Origin: a virus
Length of the DNA: 23,168 bases
Strand: one strand, 5' to 3'
Virus record (IMG/VR): IMGVR_UViG_3300021960_009438
Location: 1-23,168 of that record
Part shown: piece after piece, positions 12,581 through 21,044 of the stretch
Numbering within the stretch: the stretch's first letter is position 1
Layout: every line of letters starts with the position of its first letter
Position numbers and translations under genes: made by a program
Notes under the pieces: generated by a model
The model's database searches: none
Told to the model about the DNA's origin: nothing
Seen by the model: the letters and a program-made list of their open reading frames with translations, nothing else

Positions 12581-13351
12581 ATGTCCGATCTCGGTTTAGC
12601 TTATCAAGAGTACGATTTTTACGAAGAATTATTCGAAAAGCCTAAAAGGATAAAAAGAAAGAAAGAACCGATTAAAAAATTCCAACTTAATTTAAGGATG
12701 GTACCGGCAAGAACTACTAACCAGCAAATTGCATATGATTACTTTGAACAAGAAGAGCATCTGATTCTTCATGGCCTTGCCGGCACTGGTAAAACCTTTA
12801 TCACATTGTACCTCGCTCTCAAACGATTGTTTGAACCTAATTGTTATCAAGATAAAGTAGTAATAGTAAGATCAGTAGTACCTACCAGAGAGATGGGTTT
12901 CCTTCCTGGTAGTGAAAGAGAGAAGATGAAAACCTATGAAGCTCCCTACCAAGCAATGTGTAACGATTTGTTTGGTAGAGGTGACGCGTATGAGATTCTA
13001 AAGACCAAAAACCAGATAGAGTTCATCAGCACTTCTTTCATCAGGGGCACTACAATGGACGACTCTATCATCATAGTTGACGAAGCTCAGAACTTGACCT
13101 TCCACGAGTTAGACAGTATAATTACAAGAGTAGGAGTTAACAGTCAGATTGTGTTTTGTGGTGACTGTGGTCAAACTGACTTAGACAAGCCTTGGGACAA
13201 AAGTGGTCTAGATCAGTTTATGAATATCCTTAATTACGTAGATGGATTTAAGAAAGTTGAATTTAGTTATGACGACATTATTAGGTCTGGCCTTGTGCGA
13301 GACTATTTGATTGCTAAAGATGGTTATCTGAATGACAATTTTGTATTATGA
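12581..13351 (+). CDS. phoH: PhoH-family ATPase
   Basis: A 256-residue protein. Walker A GLAGTGKT at 65-72, VIVRSVVPTREMGFLPG (94-110) typical of PhoH, Walker B IIIVDEAQN at 163-171 and the sensor-like VFCGDCGQTD (191-200) are all present. The protein is an NTPase with the core of superfamily 1 helicase-like folds; cellular PhoH is phosphate-starvation induced and linked to RNA metabolism. It is common in marine phages. A basic N-terminus (about 20-33) precedes the core. A clear AGGAG precedes ATG 12581. The end overlaps the next gene by 20 nt. Confidence 0.9.
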   Translation: MSDLGLAYQEYDFYEELFEKPKRIKRKKEPIKKFQLNLRMVPARTTNQQIAYDYFEQEEHLILHGLAGTGKTFITLYLALKRLFEPNCYQDKVVIVRSVVPTREMGFLPGSEREKMKTYEAPYQAMCNDLFGRGDAYEILKTKNQIEFISTSFIRGTTMDDSIIIVDEAQNLTFHELDSIITRVGVNSQIVFCGDCGQTDLDKPWDKSGLDQFMNILNYVDGFKKVEFSYDDIIRSGLVRDYLIAKDGYLNDNFVL

Positions 13352-14078: not shown

Positions 14079-14743
14079 TGTTTAATCACAATCCACCGTT
14101 AGACATTAGCGAGCTAGAAACCAAATCAATAGACGGTACAAGATACTATGAAACCCCAGATGGAAAACTATATCCGTCTGTCACTACCGTACTTAAAGAC
14201 CTGTCAGCAGAAGGTATTGCAGCATGGCGCGCCAAGGTAGGAGCAGATGTTGCCAACCGTATATCAGCTCAAGCGTCTGCAAGAGGTACTGCTGTACATA
14301 AACTTTGTGAAGACTACATTGACAACAAAGAAGACTACTTGGATGGTCACATGCCAGCTAACATTGAGACGTTTAATACACTCAAAGGTTTACTAGACAA
14401 GTATCTTGATAACGTTGTTATGCAGGAGGTGCCCCTGTACTCTAACTACTTAGAAGTAGGTGGACGTGTAGACTGTATTGGTGAATGGAACGGCAAGCTG
14501 TCTGTCATTGACTTCAAGACATCCAAACGACGAAAGCGTAAAGATCAGATTGGTAACTACTTCATGCAAGCAGCTGCATACTGTGTAATGTTTGAAGAAT
14601 TAACAAAGATTCCCATTACACAAACCATTATTCTAATGTCCGTCGATAATGACCATCCTCTAGTGTTTAAGTCTACTCGCGACGAATATATTGATCAATT
14701 CATGAAACAACGCGCAAGTTACCGCGACAAATACGGCCGTTGA
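14078..14743 (+). CDS. PD-(D/E)XK nuclease (RecB/Cas4-like exonuclease)
   Basis: A 221-residue protein with GTG start 14078, one base into the previous stop. YPSVTTVL (32-39) and ARGTAVH (68-74, H74) precede GGRVDCI (128-134, D132) and SVIDFKTSK (142-150, D145 and K147). These are the catalytic core of PD-(D/E)XK exonucleases, with K147 as the lysine and D145 as the second metal ligand. QAAAYC at about 163-168 is the usual Q...Y helix. Cas4, RecB-like and phage exonucleases all share this layout. It probably acts in phage recombination or DNA processing. It ends just as a promoter begins. Confidence 0.82.
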   Translation: MFNHNPPLDISELETKSIDGTRYYETPDGKLYPSVTTVLKDLSAEGIAAWRAKVGADVANRISAQASARGTAVHKLCEDYIDNKEDYLDGHMPANIETFNTLKGLLDKYLDNVVMQEVPLYSNYLEVGGRVDCIGEWNGKLSVIDFKTSKRRKRKDQIGNYFMQAAAYCVMFEELTKIPITQTIILMSVDNDHPLVFKSTRDEYIDQFMKQRASYRDKYGR

Positions 14744-14768
14744 CCTAACCTTAATTTTCAAGGATGAT
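14740..14768 (+). promoter_or_regulatory. Sigma70-like promoter A of a four-member family
   Basis: TTGACC at 14740-14745, a 17-base spacer and GATGAT at 14763-14768. The -35 overlaps the stop of the nuclease gene. A start near 14775 would leave a leader of about 21 nt with GAGTGAG before ATG 14796. The -10 is flanked by a short GGA/TCC dyad (14762-14764 and 14770-14772). The same -35, spacer and -10 pattern recurs at 19128, 19379 and 20987. Confidence 0.7.
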
Positions 14769-14795
14769 GTCCGCCTGTTTGAGTGAGATTTTGTG

Positions 14796-15116
14796 ATGGC
14801 TATTATATCTACTGGTTGTACGTATGACATGACTGGGCGCAAGCGTCGTAAGGCTAAGCCTAAGGGTGAAGTTTACAAAAAGTTCAAGCCTAAGCAAGCC
14901 CGTACTCATATTCCTCCTGCGCGAGCCTTTAGACGAGACGAAGGTGTCGAATACAAGTCTGCTGATATTGATTCGTGCAACACTGCTAAAACTAACACTA
15001 ACGTGTACACCGGTGAGCAGAAGCTACTTGGTATCAGTACTCTCCACAAATCGTGTCTGCAACCTGTCTTCGACAAGCAGACAGCGATAGACAATGCTCA
15101 GATGAGGCGCAACTAA
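14796..15116 (+). CDS. Basic protein of unknown function
   Basis: The start is taken as ATG 14796, 8 nt after GAGTGAG, giving 106 residues; a GTG at 14793 is adjacent. The N-terminal half is very basic (RKRRKAKPK at about 15-23, then KKFKPKQAR) and could bind nucleic acid. Three cysteines are scattered (8, 61 and 86) without a ribbon pattern. No family is recognised with confidence. It is the first gene after promoter A and is coupled to the next gene by TAATG. Confidence 0.65.
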   Translation: MAIISTGCTYDMTGRKRRKAKPKGEVYKKFKPKQARTHIPPARAFRRDEGVEYKSADIDSCNTAKTNTNVYTGEQKLLGISTLHKSCLQPVFDKQTAIDNAQMRRN

Positions 15117-15532
15117 TGTTTGATTATCTGAAGCACGTCGGTACTGTTATTGAGCACGTAGAGAAAGCTCTTCTTCTTTTTATTGTAATGGGTACAGTGT
15201 GGGCAGCTGGTTTTGACATCGTCCATATGTTCGACACACAAGGCAAGATGGCTCTTGCTGATTTGTTTATGCTCTTCATCTACGCTGAGATTCTTGGAAT
15301 GGTTGGCGCCTTCTATAGCAGCCACCGCATTCCTGTCACACTTCCTTTGATCATTGCTATGACTGCATTGACTAGAATGATACTTCTTCAGACCAAAGGA
15401 GACGAACCACTTAACATACTTTTTGAAAGTATAGGGATTCTGGTTCTGGCTGTTAGTGCTCTTATCATGAGCTACAAAGACAAACTCAGTTTACATAAGA
15501 AGGAAAAGTATGGACTTGCGAGAGAAGATTAA
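15116..15532 (+). CDS. psiE: PsiE-family membrane protein
   Basis: A 138-residue protein starting at ATG 15116, coupled by TAATG to the previous gene; E. coli PsiE is close in length. Four membrane helices are visible at about 17-38, 48-68, 72-91 and 101-120. ADLFMLFIYAEIL (48-60), HRIPVTLPLIIAMTALTRMIL (70-90, read in parts) and FESIGILVLAVSALIM (103-118) match the PsiE family. PsiE is phosphate-starvation inducible in enteric bacteria and its molecular role is unclear. The end overlaps the next gene by 23 nt. Its presence beside a basic protein in the unit from promoter A suggests early expression. Confidence 0.78.
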   Translation: MFDYLKHVGTVIEHVEKALLLFIVMGTVWAAGFDIVHMFDTQGKMALADLFMLFIYAEILGMVGAFYSSHRIPVTLPLIIAMTALTRMILLQTKGDEPLNILFESIGILVLAVSALIMSYKDKLSLHKKEKYGLARED

Positions 15533-15716
15533 CCACCGCCTCGACACGTTACAAGAGATGTTGGAGAACAACGAACACCTAGATAAGCCCCAGGCAGCTG
15601 AAGCTTTGATACATCGTATATCTCCTTTCTGGAGCATCTTGTCTGAAGAAGACCGTGACTACGTACAATGTGCTCAGCATGCAATAGAAGACGGAGTTAA
15701 ATGGGGTAAACCATGA
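15510..15716 (+). CDS. Small conserved phage protein
   Basis: A 68-residue helical protein. LREKINHRLDTLQEMLENN at the start and SPFWSILSEEDRDYVQCAQHAIE (about 38-60, read in parts) match a small protein of cyanophages and T4-like marine phages in my memory, function unknown. It has a good AAGGAAAAG ribosome site within the end of psiE, so a 23-nt overlap is credible. It is followed by an ATGA overlap. Confidence 0.68.
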   Translation: MDLREKINHRLDTLQEMLENNEHLDKPQAAEALIHRISPFWSILSEEDRDYVQCAQHAIEDGVKWGKP

Positions 15717-15910
15717 CTAAAGAACGCATGAAGGATCTTTTGATTATCGGAATGCTTCCTTTTCTTGTAGTAGCATATCAAACTACTGATTGGAGCTTTC
15801 TGAGTCCTCTCGATGGTCAAGAACGTAGGTGCGCCATCTATCATCAACATGCAAAACCATCTCATAAATGTGATGTTTACGACAAACCTAAATTATATTT
15901 TCATGATTAG
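15713..15910 (+). CDS. Small single-pass membrane protein
   Basis: A 65-residue ORF starting in an ATGA overlap. One hydrophobic segment, about residues 8-21 (DLLIIGMLPFLVVAY), is followed by a hydrophilic tail rich in His, Asp and Cys (C40, H44, H47, H51, C53). The residues could bind metal but no known pattern is met. No family recognised. It is the last gene of the unit from promoter A. Confidence 0.55.
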   Translation: MTKERMKDLLIIGMLPFLVVAYQTTDWSFLSPLDGQERRCAIYHQHAKPSHKCDVYDKPKLYFHD

Positions 15911-15987
15911 TGTCTCGGGATGACTTCAAACTCGCCCTGGTCGGTACGCACCGTCACCTGAGTAAGTGAAGAAACTGCTCGTTTTAT
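15911..15987. other. GC-rich spacer before the tRNA, possibly a gene remnant
   Basis: The 50 bases 15911-15960 contain 30 G+C (60%), well above the AT-rich surroundings. On the minus strand the frame from 15993 to 15907 is open for 28 codons and reads like a plausible protein end (AVSSLTQVTVRTDQGEFEV...) before a TAA, but it has no start and an upstream stop in the tRNA. On the plus strand a 19-codon frame opens at GTG 15910. Neither is accepted as a gene. No promoter is seen here. Confidence 0.4.
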
Positions 15988-16064
15988 CGGGGATTAGCTC
16001 AGCTTGGTAGAGCGTCCGGTTTGGGACCGGAAGGTCGAAGATTCGAATTCTTCATCCCCGACCA
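15988..16064 (+). tRNA. tRNA-Pro (anticodon TGG)
   Basis: The cloverleaf folds by eye. The acceptor stem is CGGGGAT (15988-15994) with ATCCCCG (16054-16060), then discriminator A and an encoded CCA (16062-16064). The anticodon stem TCCGG/CCGGA encloses TTTGGGA with TGG at 16022-16024. The T arm has GAAGA/TCTTC and loop TTCGAAT. UGG reads all four Pro codons with wobble. Phage-borne tRNAs may match phage codon use. No att-like duplication is visible within the window. Confidence 0.95.
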
Positions 16065-16069
16065 CTTCT

Positions 16070-16077
16070 TATAAATA
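16070..16077 (+). promoter_or_regulatory. T4-type late promoter
   Basis: TATAAATA at 16070-16077 is an exact match to the T4 late consensus, recognised by gp55-like sigma in T4. It stands just after the tRNA and 28 nt before ATG 16106, so a start near 16083 would give a leader of about 23 nt for the metallopeptidase gene. A second exact copy lies at 18259. Confidence 0.68.
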
Positions 16078-16105
16078 ACATACAATAATAAGAAAAATAC
16101 CATGT

Positions 16106-17527
16106 ATGTTTTTTGAACTTTGTAATACCCTATTCCTTTTGGGAATTCTATCTTCTTCCTGTCCCGTCCCAGATCACCCTGATCAAGGCGCCGTACTTGA
16201 TGAGTACTGTGATGGCACTACGCTTGTCACTATTACAGCAGATGGACAGGGCGGTGAACTTTTTACTGAGCAACCCGAATCTGAAGCATGCGGTTACGTT
16301 CCACCGCCACCTCCTGCAGGCACACTGCTTAATTCTGGATGTTCAAAGGACTTCCCTGGTGTAAAGTGGTTTCAGTATGCTGATGGAGAAGGCGGTACAT
16401 ACTCAGAGAAGGACAGAAGGTCATATGAATGTGGTTTTAGTCGCCAACTAAACTTATCAACGGATAAAGAGTATGGTGATAGGTTTGATCCTGTCATAGT
16501 CAATGTAGACTACAAAGACATGCTCGGTCGAGATGAACCTTGGGGCATGGTACATCACTCTACTACTATAGGAAGAGCAGTCAGACTAGATCGAGATACA
16601 GTAGCCATCTATGGGGATGGACGTACAGGAGATGGTATCTTTACTTTAGGTGTGCAAGAGATACAGTTTCGTATTGAACCAGAACCAGTCTGTACAGTAG
16701 AAAACAGAGTAGACTGTGTAGGATACACACAAAGAAGCTCTCAAAATTATATCTACTACGGTGAAGATGACGACAAGATAGTTACATGGGAACTTGGTAT
16801 ATTGTTATATGCTAGTCATGCCAAATACGGTATAGACGTTCCTATTAGTGTTCTTGAAGAATACGATGTTGACAGTTACCAATGGCAAAGGTACGAAGAA
16901 AAGGTCGAAAAGTATAATGAGGTATATGAAAAGTCTGGCGTATACATTAGATACAAACTTACTAAGGTATATCTTGCTCACTGGCACACTACCGAGAACA
17001 TAAAAAATATATCGGTTGGATTGCCGGTAGACATTGTACTTGGCAGGAATACATCATACCCAGATACGTGCGGGGTTGCTAAAGTGTCGACATACTTTAG
17101 TGAAGGCAAACCACCAGCATCTATGAGTAGATGTGACATATACACCGATCTACATGAGATGGGTCACTCTGTTGGACTTGCGCATGGTCCTGAGAATCAA
17201 TCATGGGAGGCATCTGGTTACATCTTTCCCGACTTTGGCCACGGGTACAACGATATATGTAATCGCAAAGATGATTTGATGTCGTATGGGTATGAAGGAT
17301 ACTTTCACTCTAATTCAAATTTAGATTGTGATCAAATTTTTCCAGGCAACTCATATGAAGGAATCCCTGCAGGCGGCAAAGATTTTTCAGATACGGCTTA
17401 CTCTCTTAACAGAGTAAGGTATAATGTTTCTCTTATACATAGAGAGAACGATTTTGTTGATGAGGACCCTAGACTACAGAAGATGTATTCTAGAAGTGTT
17501 CGTAAAGAGATTGAGGTAGTAGATTAA
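16106..17527 (+). CDS. Metzincin-type metallopeptidase with N-terminal virion-type repeats
   Basis: A 473-residue protein. The first 20 residues form a hydrophobic signal-like segment ending in a Cys (C19), perhaps a lipoprotein, though the lipobox is weak. Two Cys-rich repeats follow at 28-64 and 72-111, separated by a PPPPP linker. The C-terminal part holds HEMGHSVGLAHG (350-361): H350, E351, H354, G357 and H360 fit the zinc site of metzincins, and LMSYG at 391-395 is a Met-turn. Many Cys in the catalytic part suggest disulfides. It likely acts outside the cytoplasm, as a virion or secreted protease; the substrate is unknown. It is downstream of a late promoter. ATG 16106 has a weak ribosome site. 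Confidence 0.75.
   Translation: MFFELCNTLFLLGILSSSCPVPDHPDQGAVLDEYCDGTTLVTITADGQGGELFTEQPESEACGYVPPPPPAGTLLNSGCSKDFPGVKWFQYADGEGGTYSEKDRRSYECGFSRQLNLSTDKEYGDRFDPVIVNVDYKDMLGRDEPWGMVHHSTTIGRAVRLDRDTVAIYGDGRTGDGIFTLGVQEIQFRIEPEPVCTVENRVDCVGYTQRSSQNYIYYGEDDDKIVTWELGILLYASHAKYGIDVPISVLEEYDVDSYQWQRYEEKVEKYNEVYEKSGVYIRYKLTKVYLAHWHTTENIKNISVGLPVDIVLGRNTSYPDTCGVAKVSTYFSEGKPPASMSRCDIYTDLHEMGHSVGLAHGPENQSWEASGYIFPDFGHGYNDICNRKDDLMSYGYEGYFHSNSNLDCDQIFPGNSYEGIPAGGKDFSDTAYSLNRVRYNVSLIHRENDFVDEDPRLQKMYSRSVRKEIEVVD
16187..16438 (+). repeat. Two protein-level tandem repeats in the metallopeptidase
   Basis: The codons for residues 28-64 and 72-111 encode two divergent copies of one unit: G..L...C, a gap, ADG.GG, then (F/Y)(T/S)E, and a closing E.CG(Y/F). 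They are joined by a Pro-rich linker at 65-71. Units of this kind occur in marine phage fibre and tail proteins as I recall, which supports a virion role. The nucleotide sequences are not close copies. Confidence 0.7.
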
Positions 17528-17528
17528 T

Positions 17529-17669
17529 ATGGCAGGCAAAGGAAGTAAACCAAGACCTATAGAAGTCGATCGTAAGACTTACGATGACAACTGGGATCGT
17601 ATTTTCAATAAGGATAAAAAGAAAGATGTACGAGTACAAGTGCAGGATAGTAAAGATAGTAGACGGTGA
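17529..17669 (+). CDS. Small basic conserved phage protein
   Basis: A 46-residue ORF from ATG 17529, two bases after the previous stop. MAGKGSKPRP at the start, then V..KTYDDNWDRIF at about 13-26, match a widespread tiny phage protein (GKGDKPRP...WD.IF pattern), function unknown. The last 15 codons overlap the nuclease gene in another frame, so only the first 30 or so residues look like the conserved unit. Confidence 0.65.
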   Translation: MAGKGSKPRPIEVDRKTYDDNWDRIFNKDKKKDVRVQVQDSKDSRR

Positions 17670-18069
17670 CACTGTTGATGTAGACATCGATCTTGGTTTT
17701 GGCATCTGGGTTCGAGACGAGCGTGTACGTGTACATGGAATCGACACACCAGAGTCTCGTACTAGAGATAAAGTAGAAAAGAAGTTTGGTCTTGCCAGTA
17801 AGAAGTTTGTACAAGACACTCTAAAGAAAGGTTCAATCCAAACTCTGGTTACACAGAAGCCAGGCGATGAAGCTAAAGGTAAGTTTGGCCGGATCCTTGG
17901 AAAGTTTAAAGTTTACGATAGTGTCACTGATAGTTGGATGTTTATGGGTGACATCATGATTCGTGAGGGGTACGCTGTTCCTTATCAAGGCGGATCAAAA
18001 GATGAGCTTGTAGAGATGCATCTAGCTAATCGAAACAAGCTAATCTCTAAGGGTGTTGTAACCCTGTGA
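17626..18069 (+). CDS. Staphylococcal-nuclease-like (thermonuclease) protein
   Basis: The start is chosen at ATG 17626 (147 residues), as homologous sequence begins at MYEYKCRIVKIVDGDT. VDGDTVDVDIDLG (12-24) holds the calcium-site Asp and Thr, and RVRVHGIDTPESR (33-45) the catalytic Arg and the IDTPE motif of the SNc fold. The C-terminal helix region is shorter than in the S. aureus enzyme. It may cut host DNA or RNA, or process phage nucleic acid. No signal peptide is seen if this start is right. It is coupled to the lipoprotein gene by a GTGA overlap. Confidence 0.82.
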   Translation: MYEYKCRIVKIVDGDTVDVDIDLGFGIWVRDERVRVHGIDTPESRTRDKVEKKFGLASKKFVQDTLKKGSIQTLVTQKPGDEAKGKFGRILGKFKVYDSVTDSWMFMGDIMIREGYAVPYQGGSKDELVEMHLANRNKLISKGVVTL

Positions 18070-18263
18070 AACCATTAGCTTTTTTGCTGGCTATCTGTTT
18101 GTCTGGTTGTTCTTCTCTAAGGTGGCCAGATGATGTTGGTGTTTCTATAGAAGATCTGGAAGGTTTTGGTAATCCAGAGGTGTTTGAATGTCAAATTACG
18201 TTCAACGGTGAAGTCCCAATAGTGCCATGTGTAATCGAAGTAACCGTTACTTGGCAGATATAA
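18066..18263 (+). CDS. Small lipoprotein
   Basis: A 65-residue ORF with GTG start 18066. A signal peptide with hydrophobic core (LAFLLAI) ends in the lipobox LSGC, with C15 as the lipidation site, so a mature lipoprotein of about 50 residues is expected. The +2 residue is Ser, which usually favours outer-membrane sorting in enteric bacteria. It lies two genes before a holin-like protein, so an outer spanin or a superinfection-blocking lipoprotein are both possible; neither is shown. The stop overlaps the next late promoter box. Confidence 0.7.
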   Translation: MKPLAFLLAICLSGCSSLRWPDDVGVSIEDLEGFGNPEVFECQITFNGEVPIVPCVIEVTVTWQI

Positions 18264-18266
18264 ATA
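18259..18266 (+). promoter_or_regulatory. T4-type late promoter
   Basis: TATAAATA at 18259-18266, an exact match to the T4 late consensus, overlapping the stop of the lipoprotein gene (TAA 18261-18263). A start near 18272 would leave a leader of about 68 nt with an inverted repeat before the holin-like gene. Confidence 0.62.
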
Positions 18267-18299
18267 TAACATTATAAAGTTGTTTTCGTAATCTACTGT

Positions 18300-18330
18300 G
18301 ATTGATTTGGTTTATGTAAATTAATCAATC
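18300..18330. repeat. Inverted repeat in the leader of the holin-like gene
   Basis: GATTGATT (18300-18307) and AATCAATC (18323-18330) are perfect complements separated by 15 bases. The right arm abuts the GAGGTGG ribosome site (18331-18337). It could be an operator or an mRNA hairpin next to the start; no T-run follows, so it is not a terminator. Confidence 0.5.
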
Positions 18331-18340
18331 GAGGTGGAAT

Positions 18341-18652
18341 ATGAGCGACGAACCTATCAAAAAGTCCATACAGATCGATCTGGAAGTTGACACCAATGTA
18401 GTCAACAGTGGAACCAATCCATTCCAAAAGTGGATTTGGATGGCACACGCAATCGATGCCTGGAGGATCTTTCCAAGACTGTTCCTTACAGTTTACATTG
18501 TGCTTCTTTACAAGACCGTGATTTGGTATATGGAGTTACCAGATCCGTCTATGTCTCAATCTGGTCTTATCTCTGTTATTGTTGGTGCAGGCGCTGCGTG
18601 GTTTGGTTTATACGCAGGTACACATAAAGCTCCACCCTCCAACGACAAATAG
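18341..18652 (+). CDS. Holin-like two-TM protein
   Basis: A 103-residue protein. A hydrophilic N-terminus of about 40 residues is followed by RIFPRLFLTVYIVLLYKTVIWY (about 42-63, read in parts), a first membrane helix. LISVIVGAGAAWFGLYAG (76-93) is the second. The W.IFPR start and GAGAAWFGLY ending recur in putative holin-like proteins of marine phages, from memory. A short charged tail follows. This topology fits a class II holin or a phage membrane protein of unknown role. It is near a lipoprotein and a membrane-anchored protein, resembling a lysis region, but no endolysin is found in the window. Confidence 0.6.
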   Translation: MSDEPIKKSIQIDLEVDTNVVNSGTNPFQKWIWMAHAIDAWRIFPRLFLTVYIVLLYKTVIWYMELPDPSMSQSGLISVIVGAGAAWFGLYAGTHKAPPSNDK

Positions 18653-18662
18653 GATCTAAGCC

Positions 18663-19127
18663 ATGATGGAGATAGCCGCGGCCATATCAATGGCCAGCAC
18701 GGCGTTCAATGCTTTGAAAAAGGGGATGGAAACAGGACGTGAAATAGAGGATATGGTGGACTACTTTGGTAAGTGGTTCGAAGCAAAGGATGCCTTGTCC
18801 GAACAGAACATTAACGTAAACAACCAGCCAGCATTTAAAAAAATGTTTTCTGGTAACAGCGTAGAAGCTCAAGCTCTGCAAGTGACTCATGCTAAGCATA
18901 AGATCAAGCAAATGGAGAAAGAGCTATACGAGTACCTTCTGTATACTGGTCAGCAGCAGTTTTACAATGACATGATGGCTGAACGCAGGGTCATTCGTCA
19001 AGCTCGTATAGATGAAGCTATAAGACGATCAGATAGAAGAAGGTTTTGGTTTGACCTTATTATCGGAAGTGGGGCAGTGCTTATCGCTGTAGGAGTCATT
19101 GTCGGCGTCTTCATGGCCATACTGTAG
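18663..19127 (+). CDS. C-terminally membrane-anchored coiled-coil protein
   Basis: A 154-residue protein. MMEIAAAISMASTAFNALKKG starts with a small-residue helix, and GREIEDMVDYFGKWFEAKDAL (about 25-45, read in parts) resembles a family of marine phage proteins of the A..ngREi....g.f..Ak.el type. The middle is a charged helical region (about 75-128) and a single membrane helix lies at about 130-152. Role unknown. It ends just before promoter B. Confidence 0.6.
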   Translation: MMEIAAAISMASTAFNALKKGMETGREIEDMVDYFGKWFEAKDALSEQNINVNNQPAFKKMFSGNSVEAQALQVTHAKHKIKQMEKELYEYLLYTGQQQFYNDMMAERRVIRQARIDEAIRRSDRRRFWFDLIIGSGAVLIAVGVIVGVFMAIL

Positions 19128-19156
19128 TTGACCTAACAACCAAGTGCCCCGATAAT
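19128..19156 (+). promoter_or_regulatory. Sigma70-like promoter B, with a dyad around the -10
   Basis: TTGACC at 19128-19133, 17-base spacer, GATAAT at 19151-19156. The -10 sits in the loop of a perfect 7-bp dyad, AGTGCCC (19143-19149) and GGGCACT (19157-19163). With normal spacing the transcript would begin close to 19162-19164, at the ATG of the next gene. It directly follows the stop of the previous gene (TAG 19125-19127). Confidence 0.7.
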
Positions 19157-19163
19157 GGGCACT

Positions 19164-19382
19164 ATGAAAAAAGATGCACTTAAAGAAGCTGTCACTGATA
19201 CAGCACTCGCAGCGGCAATCAACGTGCCGCTCAACTATGTTCTTATCTCATTTGCGTTTTCATTGGAGTTGACTGCTTTGCAGTCGACTCTTTTGTTCAC
19301 TTCGGTGTTCACTGTAATCGCCATAACGAGAAAGTATTACGTCAGAATGCACTTTGAACGCCGCAGTTTACGCGGCTGTTGA
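19164..19382 (+). CDS. Small two-TM membrane protein
   Basis: 72 residues from ATG 19164. An ATG at 19155 is in frame but sits inside the -10 of promoter B, so it would be excluded from that transcript. Helices lie at about 18-37 and 40-56 (counting from the first ATG, add 3). EAVTDTALAAAINVPLNYVL and FTVIAITRKYYVR recall a conserved family of small phage membrane proteins (two TM and a basic RKYY.R tail), function unknown. No Shine-Dalgarno-like site is visible upstream of either ATG, consistent with a leaderless mRNA. Confidence 0.65.
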   Translation: MKKDALKEAVTDTALAAAINVPLNYVLISFAFSLELTALQSTLLFTSVFTVIAITRKYYVRMHFERRSLRGC

Positions 19383-19407
19383 CCTTACGTAAACTTTCCA
19401 GGATAGT
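19379..19407 (+). promoter_or_regulatory. Sigma70-like promoter C, with a dyad around the -10
   Basis: TTGACC at 19379-19384, overlapping the stop of the previous gene; 17-base spacer; GATAGT at 19402-19407. CCAGGA (19398-19403) and TCCTGG (19409-19414) form a perfect 6-bp dyad around the -10 region with a 5-base centre. A start near 19414 gives a leader of about 30 nt with AGAGAGAG before ATG 19444. TGTCC (19407-19411) can also pair with GGACA (19421-19425). Confidence 0.7.
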
Positions 19408-19443
19408 GTCCTGGTCAATTGGACACAAAGAGAGAGATTTGTT

Positions 19444-20394
19444 ATGGCACATATGGTTGAAACAATGGCATACGCTGGAGAAGTTCCTTGGCACGGTCTT
19501 GGTACAAAAGTACCTGCTGACTTAGGTCCTCTTCAGATGATGCAGAAAGCAGGTTGTGATTGGACTGTCAGCAAGCAGCAGATGTATGTCTTGGATGGCA
19601 TTCCTGTTACTGGTAAGAAGGCTCTGATTCGAGACGGTGAAAACGATGTACTCGATATCGTCGGTGACGATTGGAATCCTGTACAGAACTCTGAGGCTTT
19701 CGAGTTCTTTCACGAGTACTGCATGGCAGGTGACATGGAAATGCACACTGCTGGCTCGTTAGACAACGGTCGTAACGTGTGGGTGCTTGCTAAGGTGAAG
19801 GAGTCGTTCTCTATCCTTGGTGATGATCAAGTGGACAGCTACCTGTTGTTCTCTAACCCTCACAAGTATGGCAAGGCTATCGACGTGCGGTTTACTCCTA
19901 TCCGAGTTGTTTGCAACAACACTCTGACAATGAGCTTGAACGCTGACTCTAAGAACCAGGTCAAGTTGAACCACCGTACAGTTTTTGATGCTGACATGGT
20001 TAAGCAGACTTTGGGCATTGCTCACGATAAGTTCGCTAAGTACAAAGAAGTAGCAGAGTTCTTGTCTAGCAAGCGCTACACCAAGGAGTCGTTGGTCAAC
20101 TACTACAACGAAGTGTTCCCTCACACGTATGCTGGTAGCAAAGGCAAGACTGTAGAGTCTTTCGATGACCTGACTAAGAACGCTAAGGCTGCTCATGATG
20201 TACTGCACACTCAGCCTGGTGCTACTAAGGGTGAAGGTACCTTCTGGCAAGCATTCAACAGTGTGACGTTTATGACCGATCACTTGATGGGTCGCTCTGC
20301 TGAGACAAGACTGAATTCAGCATGGTTTGGACAAAACCAGACTCGTAAGGTCAAGGCTCTGCAGAAGGCAGTCGAGTTCGCTGAGGCTGCCTAA
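19444..20394 (+). CDS. DUF932 protein (phage/plasmid-like protein)
   Basis: A 316-residue protein. AYAGEVPWHGLGTKVPADL at about 10-28, a second segment with WNPVQNSEAFEFF (77-89) and RFTPIRVVCNNTLTMSL (149-165) match the DUF932 family (TIGR03299), which occurs widely in phages and plasmids. Function is unknown; expression is often early. It is driven by promoter C. The codons favour C endings (AAC, TAC, GAC, TTC, CGT, CTG) in contrast to the glycan cassette, suggesting selection for strong expression. A structured RNA/terminator follows its stop. Confidence 0.85.
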   Translation: MAHMVETMAYAGEVPWHGLGTKVPADLGPLQMMQKAGCDWTVSKQQMYVLDGIPVTGKKALIRDGENDVLDIVGDDWNPVQNSEAFEFFHEYCMAGDMEMHTAGSLDNGRNVWVLAKVKESFSILGDDQVDSYLLFSNPHKYGKAIDVRFTPIRVVCNNTLTMSLNADSKNQVKLNHRTVFDADMVKQTLGIAHDKFAKYKEVAEFLSSKRYTKESLVNYYNEVFPHTYAGSKGKTVESFDDLTKNAKAAHDVLHTQPGATKGEGTFWQAFNSVTFMTDHLMGRSAETRLNSAWFGQNQTRKVKALQKAVEFAEAA

Positions 20395-20404
20395 TTATGG
20401 GGAC

Positions 20405-20479
20405 GAACGGAGGGGAAGGGTTAGCCACCTGTACCCCCTCGAAGTCGGCTTATTGAGAGCCCCTCCGTTCACTTTTTTT
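20405..20479 (+). terminator. Structured RNA ending in an intrinsic terminator
   Basis: An 11-bp perfect stem, GAACGGAGGGG (20405-20415) with CCCCTCCGTTC (20460-20470), is followed by AC and seven Ts (20473-20479). The 44-base interior can form two hairpins: GGGT (20418-20421) with ACCC (20433-20436), and CTC.AAG (20438-20444) with CTT...GAG (20449-20457), closing a TCGG loop. The result is a three-way junction. AGCC in the first loop (20423-20426) is complementary to GGCT (20447-20450), so a pseudoknot is possible. It begins 11 nt after the DUF932 stop. Confidence 0.65.
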
Positions 20480-20554
20480 AGTATTAAGAATTCGTGTGCC
20501 ATGGCCCCGCATGGATATACTTTTCAAGGGTCAAAATTGATTGAAGGATTTGTT

Positions 20555-20872
20555 ATGCCTCATATATGTCAAAAAGTCGCCGCTTGGCGTACAGAAACAC
20601 AACCGTTTGTGTTTGAAGTGAAACAGCATGTTAACTATGATGTTGAAGATGGTAAGAAAGTTTTTATCAATGGACGCAAAGCTAAATTGGTAACATCAGC
20701 TTACATCGGAGCATCGCAGTATCACGCTGGAATGTGCTGGAATGAGTATCGACACATTCGAGATACTTGTGGTAAGACTGCTACTGGTAACCAAGGTCAA
20801 AAAATGGTCGAGATGGTTAAGGATGCTGGTAGACGTTGGTGGAAAAGCCGAAACGAAAACAGTTTTACGTAA
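20555..20872 (+). CDS. Protein of unknown function, Trp/Lys-rich
   Basis: Start is taken at ATG 20555 because GAAGGA lies 7-12 nt upstream, giving 105 residues; ATG 20501 would add 18 residues but has no ribosome site. QPFVFEVKQHVNYDVEDGKKVFINGRKAK (21-49, in parts) reads as beta strands, and the C-terminus is helical and basic (DAGRRWWKSRNENSFT). No motif is recognised. It stands between the structured RNA and an intrinsic terminator, so expression depends on read-through or an unseen promoter. Confidence 0.6.
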   Translation: MPHICQKVAAWRTETQPFVFEVKQHVNYDVEDGKKVFINGRKAKLVTSAYIGASQYHAGMCWNEYRHIRDTCGKTATGNQGQKMVEMVKDAGRRWWKSRNENSFT

Positions 20873-20878
20873 ATAGTG

Positions 20879-20902
20879 AACGGGCCCTCGGGCCCGTTTT
20901 CT
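20879..20902 (+). terminator. Intrinsic terminator
   Basis: AACGGGCCC (20879-20887) and GGGCCCGTT (20890-20898) form a GC-rich hairpin with a tiny loop, followed by TTTTCTT (to 20902). It sits 6 nt after the stop of the 20555-20872 gene and before an AT-rich spacer of about 90 bases, in which no gene is seen. Confidence 0.82.
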
Positions 20903-20986
20903 TAAACCGCATAAAACGTAGGTCTTTATTTTTATGCACTTTTGCAACTTTTTTGTAACTCCTTGTTTTGTTTAAGAATTTAGTTG

Positions 20987-21015
20987 TTGTCATTTCCACA
21001 TTTAGCCCGGATGAT
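20987..21015 (+). promoter_or_regulatory. Sigma70-like promoter D with an AT-rich upstream stretch
   Basis: TTGTCA at 20987-20992, a 17-base spacer and GATGAT at 21010-21015. CCCG (21006-21009) and CGGG (21019-21022) flank the -10. Upstream T-tracts (about 20927-20985) could act as an UP element. A start near 21022 leaves about 23 nt of leader, with GAGGA at 21032-21036 before ATG 21045. It would drive the train of small genes to the window end. Confidence 0.68.
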
Positions 21016-21044
21016 GGACGGGTAAATTAATGAGGAATACCGAT

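Follow-up and report, generated by a model that had tools for sequence, protein, structure and literature searches.

T4-like phages begin with promoters of the host sigma70 type, and sigma70 has a strong preference for T at position -12. In Methylophilales phage Melnitz, 31 early promoters have been predicted (PMC9004378). T4-like phages also carry PeSLs, which are summarised in PMC4503421 as composite promoter-terminator cassettes (Arbiol 2010; Comeau 2014, cited there).

Here we describe a family of predicted promoters in one stretch of viral DNA (hereafter the window, meaning the whole stretch that was analysed), a 23,168-base virus record of a marine T4-like myovirus, and in the clade of viral contigs related to it. 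Like the Melnitz early promoters, the sites combine a TTGAC -35 element, an exact 17-base spacer and a -10 hexamer, lie mostly in intergenic positions on the gene strand, and stand beside a separate class of TATAAAT late boxes; unlike them, the clade has GATRRT in place of TATAAT, a nearly fixed G at -6 and C at -3, and most often C as the sixth base of the -35 element (PMC9004378). The alphaproteobacterial sigma70 promoters of Sinorhizobium meliloti share with the clade a well-kept TTG in the -35 element and the occurrence of leaderless mRNAs, which are predicted in the clade, but their -10 element is loosely kept whereas that of the clade is well kept in an altered form (PMC3616915).

Genomic setting

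The window encodes PhoH (from 12581), a PD-(D/E)XK exonuclease (14078), a DUF7220 protein (19155 or 19164) and a DUF932 protein (19444). By DUF932, the nearest isolates are Melnitz and Phage C48C1 (56% identity each), both filed in Kyanoviridae, and then Sinorhizobium phage phiM12 (48%). Close relatives among viral contigs, designated here by L numbers, have exonucleases 83-95% identical to that of the window. Past the right end of the window, the gene order in relatives continues to a gp32-like gene. A search for the host through relatives in bacterial genomes returned one weak and uninformative match (Alicyclobacillus, 37% identity), and a search of Rfam gave tRNA as the sole match.

Four predicted promoters share one architecture

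An earlier note on this DNA had pointed to four sites, at 14740, 19128, 19379 and 20987, as promoters of a single family. We found all four as described, each with an exact 17-base spacer and a G after the -10 element (Table 1), and three of them do overlap or adjoin the preceding stop codon (TGA inside the -35 box at 14740 and 19379, TAG directly before 19128). The glycan cassette, said to lack such sites, indeed contains no intergenic match; relaxed matches at 1207, 6145 and 8019 all fall within ORFs. At each of the four sites the -35 box matches TTGACA at five of six positions (TTGACC three times, TTGTCA once), the spacer is within the 16-18 bases of sigma70 promoters, and GATRRT keeps positions 2, 3 and 6 of the -10 element, with G rather than T at position 1.

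Table 1. Predicted promoters and other signals in the window.
Feature	Position	Strand	Elements	Predicted start and leader	Context
Predicted promoter S1	14740-14769	+	-35 TTGACC 14740-14745; spacer 17; -10 GATGAT 14763-14768; G at -6	~14775; ~21 nt to ATG 14796	-35 box holds exonuclease stop TGA 14741-14743
Predicted promoter S2	19128-19157	+	-35 TTGACC 19128-19133; spacer 17; -10 GATAAT 19151-19156; G at -6	~19163; one base 5' of ATG 19164	stop TAG 19125-19127 immediately 5' of -35 box
Predicted promoter S3	19379-19408	+	-35 TTGACC 19379-19384; spacer 17; -10 GATAGT 19402-19407; G at -6	~19414; ~30 nt to ATG 19444 of DUF932 gene	-35 box holds stop TGA 19380-19382
Predicted promoter S4	20987-21016	+	-35 TTGTCA 20987-20992; spacer 17; -10 GATGAT 21010-21015; G at -6	~21022; ~23 nt to probable ATG 21045	
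Likely internal phoH promoter	13094-13122	+	TTGACC-N17-TATAAT; T at -12		
Terminator-like hairpin (fold)	20405-20479	+	11-bp outer stem; T run		3' of DUF932 gene
Terminator-like hairpin (fold)	20878-20904	+	TTTTCTT tail		~85 bp upstream of S4
T4-type late box	16070-16077	+	TATAAATA		after tRNA-Pro; same place in L083, L085, L093, L100 and others
T4-type late box	18259-18266	+	TATAAATA		before ORF 18341; conserved in L083, L084, L086, L100

Within the window, TTGACC-N17-GATRRT occurs at three exact sites against 0.00 expected from dinucleotide shuffles, and allowing one mismatch gives eight sites against none for a reversed-pattern control. A scan with the plain sigma70 consensus returned 29 promoter-like sites where 27.0 were expected; as this is at the level of noise, the case for the four sites rests on comparison with relatives, and a plain scan would overlook the early promoters of phages like this one or mix them with chance matches. 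We used a weight model built from relatives only, with one vote per location and the window left out, although a near relative, L083, whose DUF932 protein is 97% identical to that of the window, was included. Searching both strands of the window, this model placed 19128, 19379, 14740 and 20987 as the top four (scores 20.8 to 15.5), where the same model on simulated sequence gave a mean maximum of 13.3 and a largest score of 19.3; a site at 13094 ranked fifth.

The sites recur at orthologous positions in the relatives. In about 15 distinct relatives the spacer of S1 has diverged in sequence, yet TTGAC, the spacer length of 17 and a -10 element of the GAT type are kept, and S2 is conserved in L083, L084, L086 and L089 with the same distance from -10 to ATG. 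The S3 ortholog keeps GATAGT in L083 and L086 and has TATACT in L084, so G at -12 is not obligatory; sites related to S4 are present in L083, L002 and L267. In a scan of clade contigs that set no requirement for G at -12, 18 of the 27 unique intergenic TTGAC words had xAxxxT at spacing 17 (17 of these with G first), compared with 2, 1, 0 and 6 at spacings 15, 16, 18 and 19. Together, conservation and spacing lend good support to the prediction that the four sites form a single promoter family, with sigma70 architecture and an ordinary layout.

The -10 element and discriminator differ from those of related isolates

Since sigma70 strongly prefers T at -12, the G found there, which the earlier note had not pointed out as a departure from the consensus, is unexpected. 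We assembled 32 clade sites from five locations, S1-S4 and a fifth, S5, which lies just past the right end of the window and was found in L132, L260 and L264. The resulting consensus is G-TTGACC-N17-GATRRT-GNNC, in which G occupies -12 at 30 of 32 sites (the other two have T) and -6 at 29 of 32, and C occupies -3 at all 32; these counts represent only five independent locations, the remaining copies being orthologs. A G precedes TTGAC at all locations except S5, and the sixth base of the -35 element is most often C. This is a known kind of promoter, and its variant part is the -10 element with the discriminator.

Melnitz and C48C1 use TTGACA-N17-TATAAT instead. A search for TTGAC-N18-NATRRT gave 20 sites in C48C1 and 21 in Melnitz, compared with 2 and 4 in controls, nearly all of them with T at -12. 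In 12 C48C1 and 8 Melnitz promoters, hand-picked as good examples of this pattern, T was present at -12 in 20 of 20, A was commonest at -6 and C was found at -3 in two of 20. Counted by location, the ratio of G to T at -12 is 5:1 in the clade and 1:18 in C48C1 (Fisher p 0.0006). The DUF932 gene of more distant relatives is likewise preceded by TTGAC(A/C)-N17-TATAAT-like promoters.

In a first set of loci, the 0.42 Mb belonging to the clade contained 22 unique copies of TTGAC-N17-GATRRT-GNNC, and the 2.4 Mb outside it contained none; there, TATRRT outnumbered GATRRT by 150 to 20. A scan of all viral contigs showed that the variant is not unique to the clade, since two further T4-like lineages share part of it. 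In the lineage of L359, L322 and L353, similar promoters occur in both a TATAAT and a GATAAT version, and G at -6 with C at -3 is common in each; in that of L323, four of five such sites have G at -12. Many of the remaining matches resemble coding or chance matches. In the wider group, T and G at -12 look exchangeable.

The L359 group, taken with L321 and L332 as well as L322 and L353, has repeated promoters that start with TTGACATTAATTCC and end in (T/G)ATAAT, and their spacer is partly common to different locations.

Inverted repeats around the -10 element (CCAGGATAGTGTCCTGG at 19379 and GTGCCCCGATAATGGGCAC at 19128) were considered as an operator or hairpin and rejected, as the repeats are broken in L083/L086 and L089 while the -10 letters are kept. 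A CsrA-like GGA reading was dropped because the base before GAT varies between sites (A, G, T or C).

Terminators, leaders and transcription units

The proposal that the four sites mark separate transcription units held clearly for 20987 alone, which lies behind a terminator-like hairpin (Table 1). Folding revealed no terminator immediately 5' of 14740, 19128 or 19379. Readthrough from the preceding gene is therefore likely there, and these three promoters would probably supplement it instead of setting units apart. A 12-bp hairpin within the DUF7220 gene (19265-19291; GGAGTTGACTGC-TTT-GCAGTCGACTCT, then TTTTG) is probably not a conserved terminator, as L083 and L086 have a changed base in the stem and L084 no longer has the repeat.

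No conserved hairpins were seen in the leaders by folding. At S2, in the window and in relatives, the -10 element lies seven bases 5' of ATG 19164, and no Shine-Dalgarno sequence precedes this ATG; from this short distance and missing ribosome-binding sequence, the DUF7220 mRNA is predicted to be leaderless or nearly so.

Forty bases spanning the -10 element, discriminator, leader and Shine-Dalgarno sequence are identical between L083 (at S4) and L260/L262 (at S5). This 40-bp module stands before a gene starting MQDRLYIPEFF in L083 and before one starting MDISTLQ in L260/L262; the occurrence of one module before different genes, a feature of PeSLs, is thus found in relatives and not within the window. 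In L132, L260 and L264, a terminator hairpin stands a short way upstream of S5. As far as PeSLs are summarised in PMC4503421, the resemblance would lie in S5 directly behind a terminator and in this promoter-leader module of the relatives, whereas 14740, 19128 and 19379 differ from PeSLs in that no adjacent terminator was found and no conserved stem-loop was seen in their leaders.

Near S4, the ORF at 20555-20872 is apparently absent from L083, where S4 directly follows the terminator behind the DUF932 gene, and it appears to have been gained or lost in the window phage or in L083. Where the window has the hairpin at 20405-20479, L002 has a tRNA-Cys (794-867).

Timing of expression

The T4 late element, a TATAAATA -10 without a -35, is absent from the four sites, and direct reading of the four spacers found no MotA box (TGCTT). 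The window does contain two TATAAATA boxes (Table 1). By count they are not enriched (2 found, 1.24 expected), but relatives have them at matching positions, behind tRNAs whose sequences differ, and this conservation in place indicates that two distinct promoter classes exist. The TTGAC class corresponds to the promoters called early in Melnitz (PMC9004378). By analogy, it is plausible that the four promoters act early, as the earlier note had proposed. Behind the box at 16070 lies an ORF of 473 amino acids (16106-17527) with a possible zinc metalloprotease motif, HEMGHSVGLAH.

Explanations for the conserved pattern

We consider it very likely that all four sites act as sigma70-architecture promoters, used by the host RNA polymerase for small genes between the exonuclease gene and gp32, and most likely early. 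In such a scheme, host polymerase with its housekeeping sigma factor would bind TTGAC and open the DNA at GATRRT, giving leaders of ~21 nt at 14740, ~30 nt at 19379 and ~23 nt at 20987. The promoters, presumably active and acting early in infection, would serve the small genes of this variable region of the T4-like myovirus, and the shared G-12, G-6 and C-3 would follow preferences of the host's housekeeping sigma factor. That the pattern is instead a by-product without promoter function, created by TGA stops in TTGACC and a start-like ATG in GATRATG, is scarcely credible: two of the -35 boxes do include a stop codon and a plain consensus scan does not rise above noise, but both boxes and the exact gap are kept while the spacer diverges, enrichment is seen only at 17, the GATAGT sites have no ATG, and 20987 is far from any stop codon. 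The small downstream genes have no assigned timing, which would suit middle promoters requiring a phage activator, like the MotA/AsiA promoters of T4. This we regard as improbable, given the full TTGAC -35 element, the lack of TGCTT in all four spacers, and the report that marine T4-like phages have no identifiable middle promoters (PMC9004378).

Two further explanations concern the variant letters. The GATRRTGNNC block might also be an operator, with binding of a phage regulator rather than sigma keeping G-12, G-6 and C-3, since the five locations share three fixed G/C positions that go beyond the sigma70 consensus or against it, and G at -12 should lower promoter strength. We think this unlikely, because the block occurs with TTGAC almost only at spacing 17 (22 unique copies; 5 at 20 and 0 at every other spacing between 12 and 23), and because the L359 lineage, with G-6 and often C-3 accompanied by either T or G at -12, is better fitted by a sigma or discriminator preference. 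A real possibility, although short of an even chance, is that these are ordinary sigma70 promoters kept weak, G-12 tuning strength down beside a good -35 element with sigma recognition unchanged. T and G do swap at -12 between orthologs (L084 at 19379) and within the L359 lineage, and GATAAT -10 boxes are also found among constitutive promoters of E. coli (PMC3946193). A or C would weaken a promoter too, yet -12 is G or T at every one of the clade sites, and G-6 and C-3 are left unexplained.

Returning to host-directed promoters of sigma70 architecture, the G in place of the relatives' T may reflect the host RNA polymerase. A tentative and rather doubtful extension is that early promoters of the clade and of the two other T4-like lineages have shifted to a coordinated variant, G-TTGAC-N17-GATRRT-GNNC, with the host's housekeeping sigma factor or a bound phage factor reading G-12 and the G/C-marked discriminator. 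If true, the host group of an uncultured phage could be read from its promoter letters. Should the letter change follow the host sigma factor, the promoter consensus could help in host assignment for uncultured marine T4-like phages, and the change would offer a natural, testable case of altered -12 recognition.

A likely internal promoter in phoH

No sequence in the scanned region matches sigma70 better than the site at 13094, TTGACC-N17-TATAAT, which the earlier note had missed. TTGAC and ATAAT are both kept there in 17 of 21 distinct phoH genes of the clade; synonymous codon shuffles within the genes gave a mean of 1.2 and a maximum of 7 (2000 runs), a comparison that is no strict probability because the phoH genes are related. 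The codons in the spacer vary freely among these genes. From this pattern of conservation, the site is likely to be an internal promoter in phoH. We also observed that the first ~16 codons of phoH (12581-12630 in the window) and the last ~10 have higher conservation at synonymous sites than the rest, and that the conserved 3' end overlaps the next gene.
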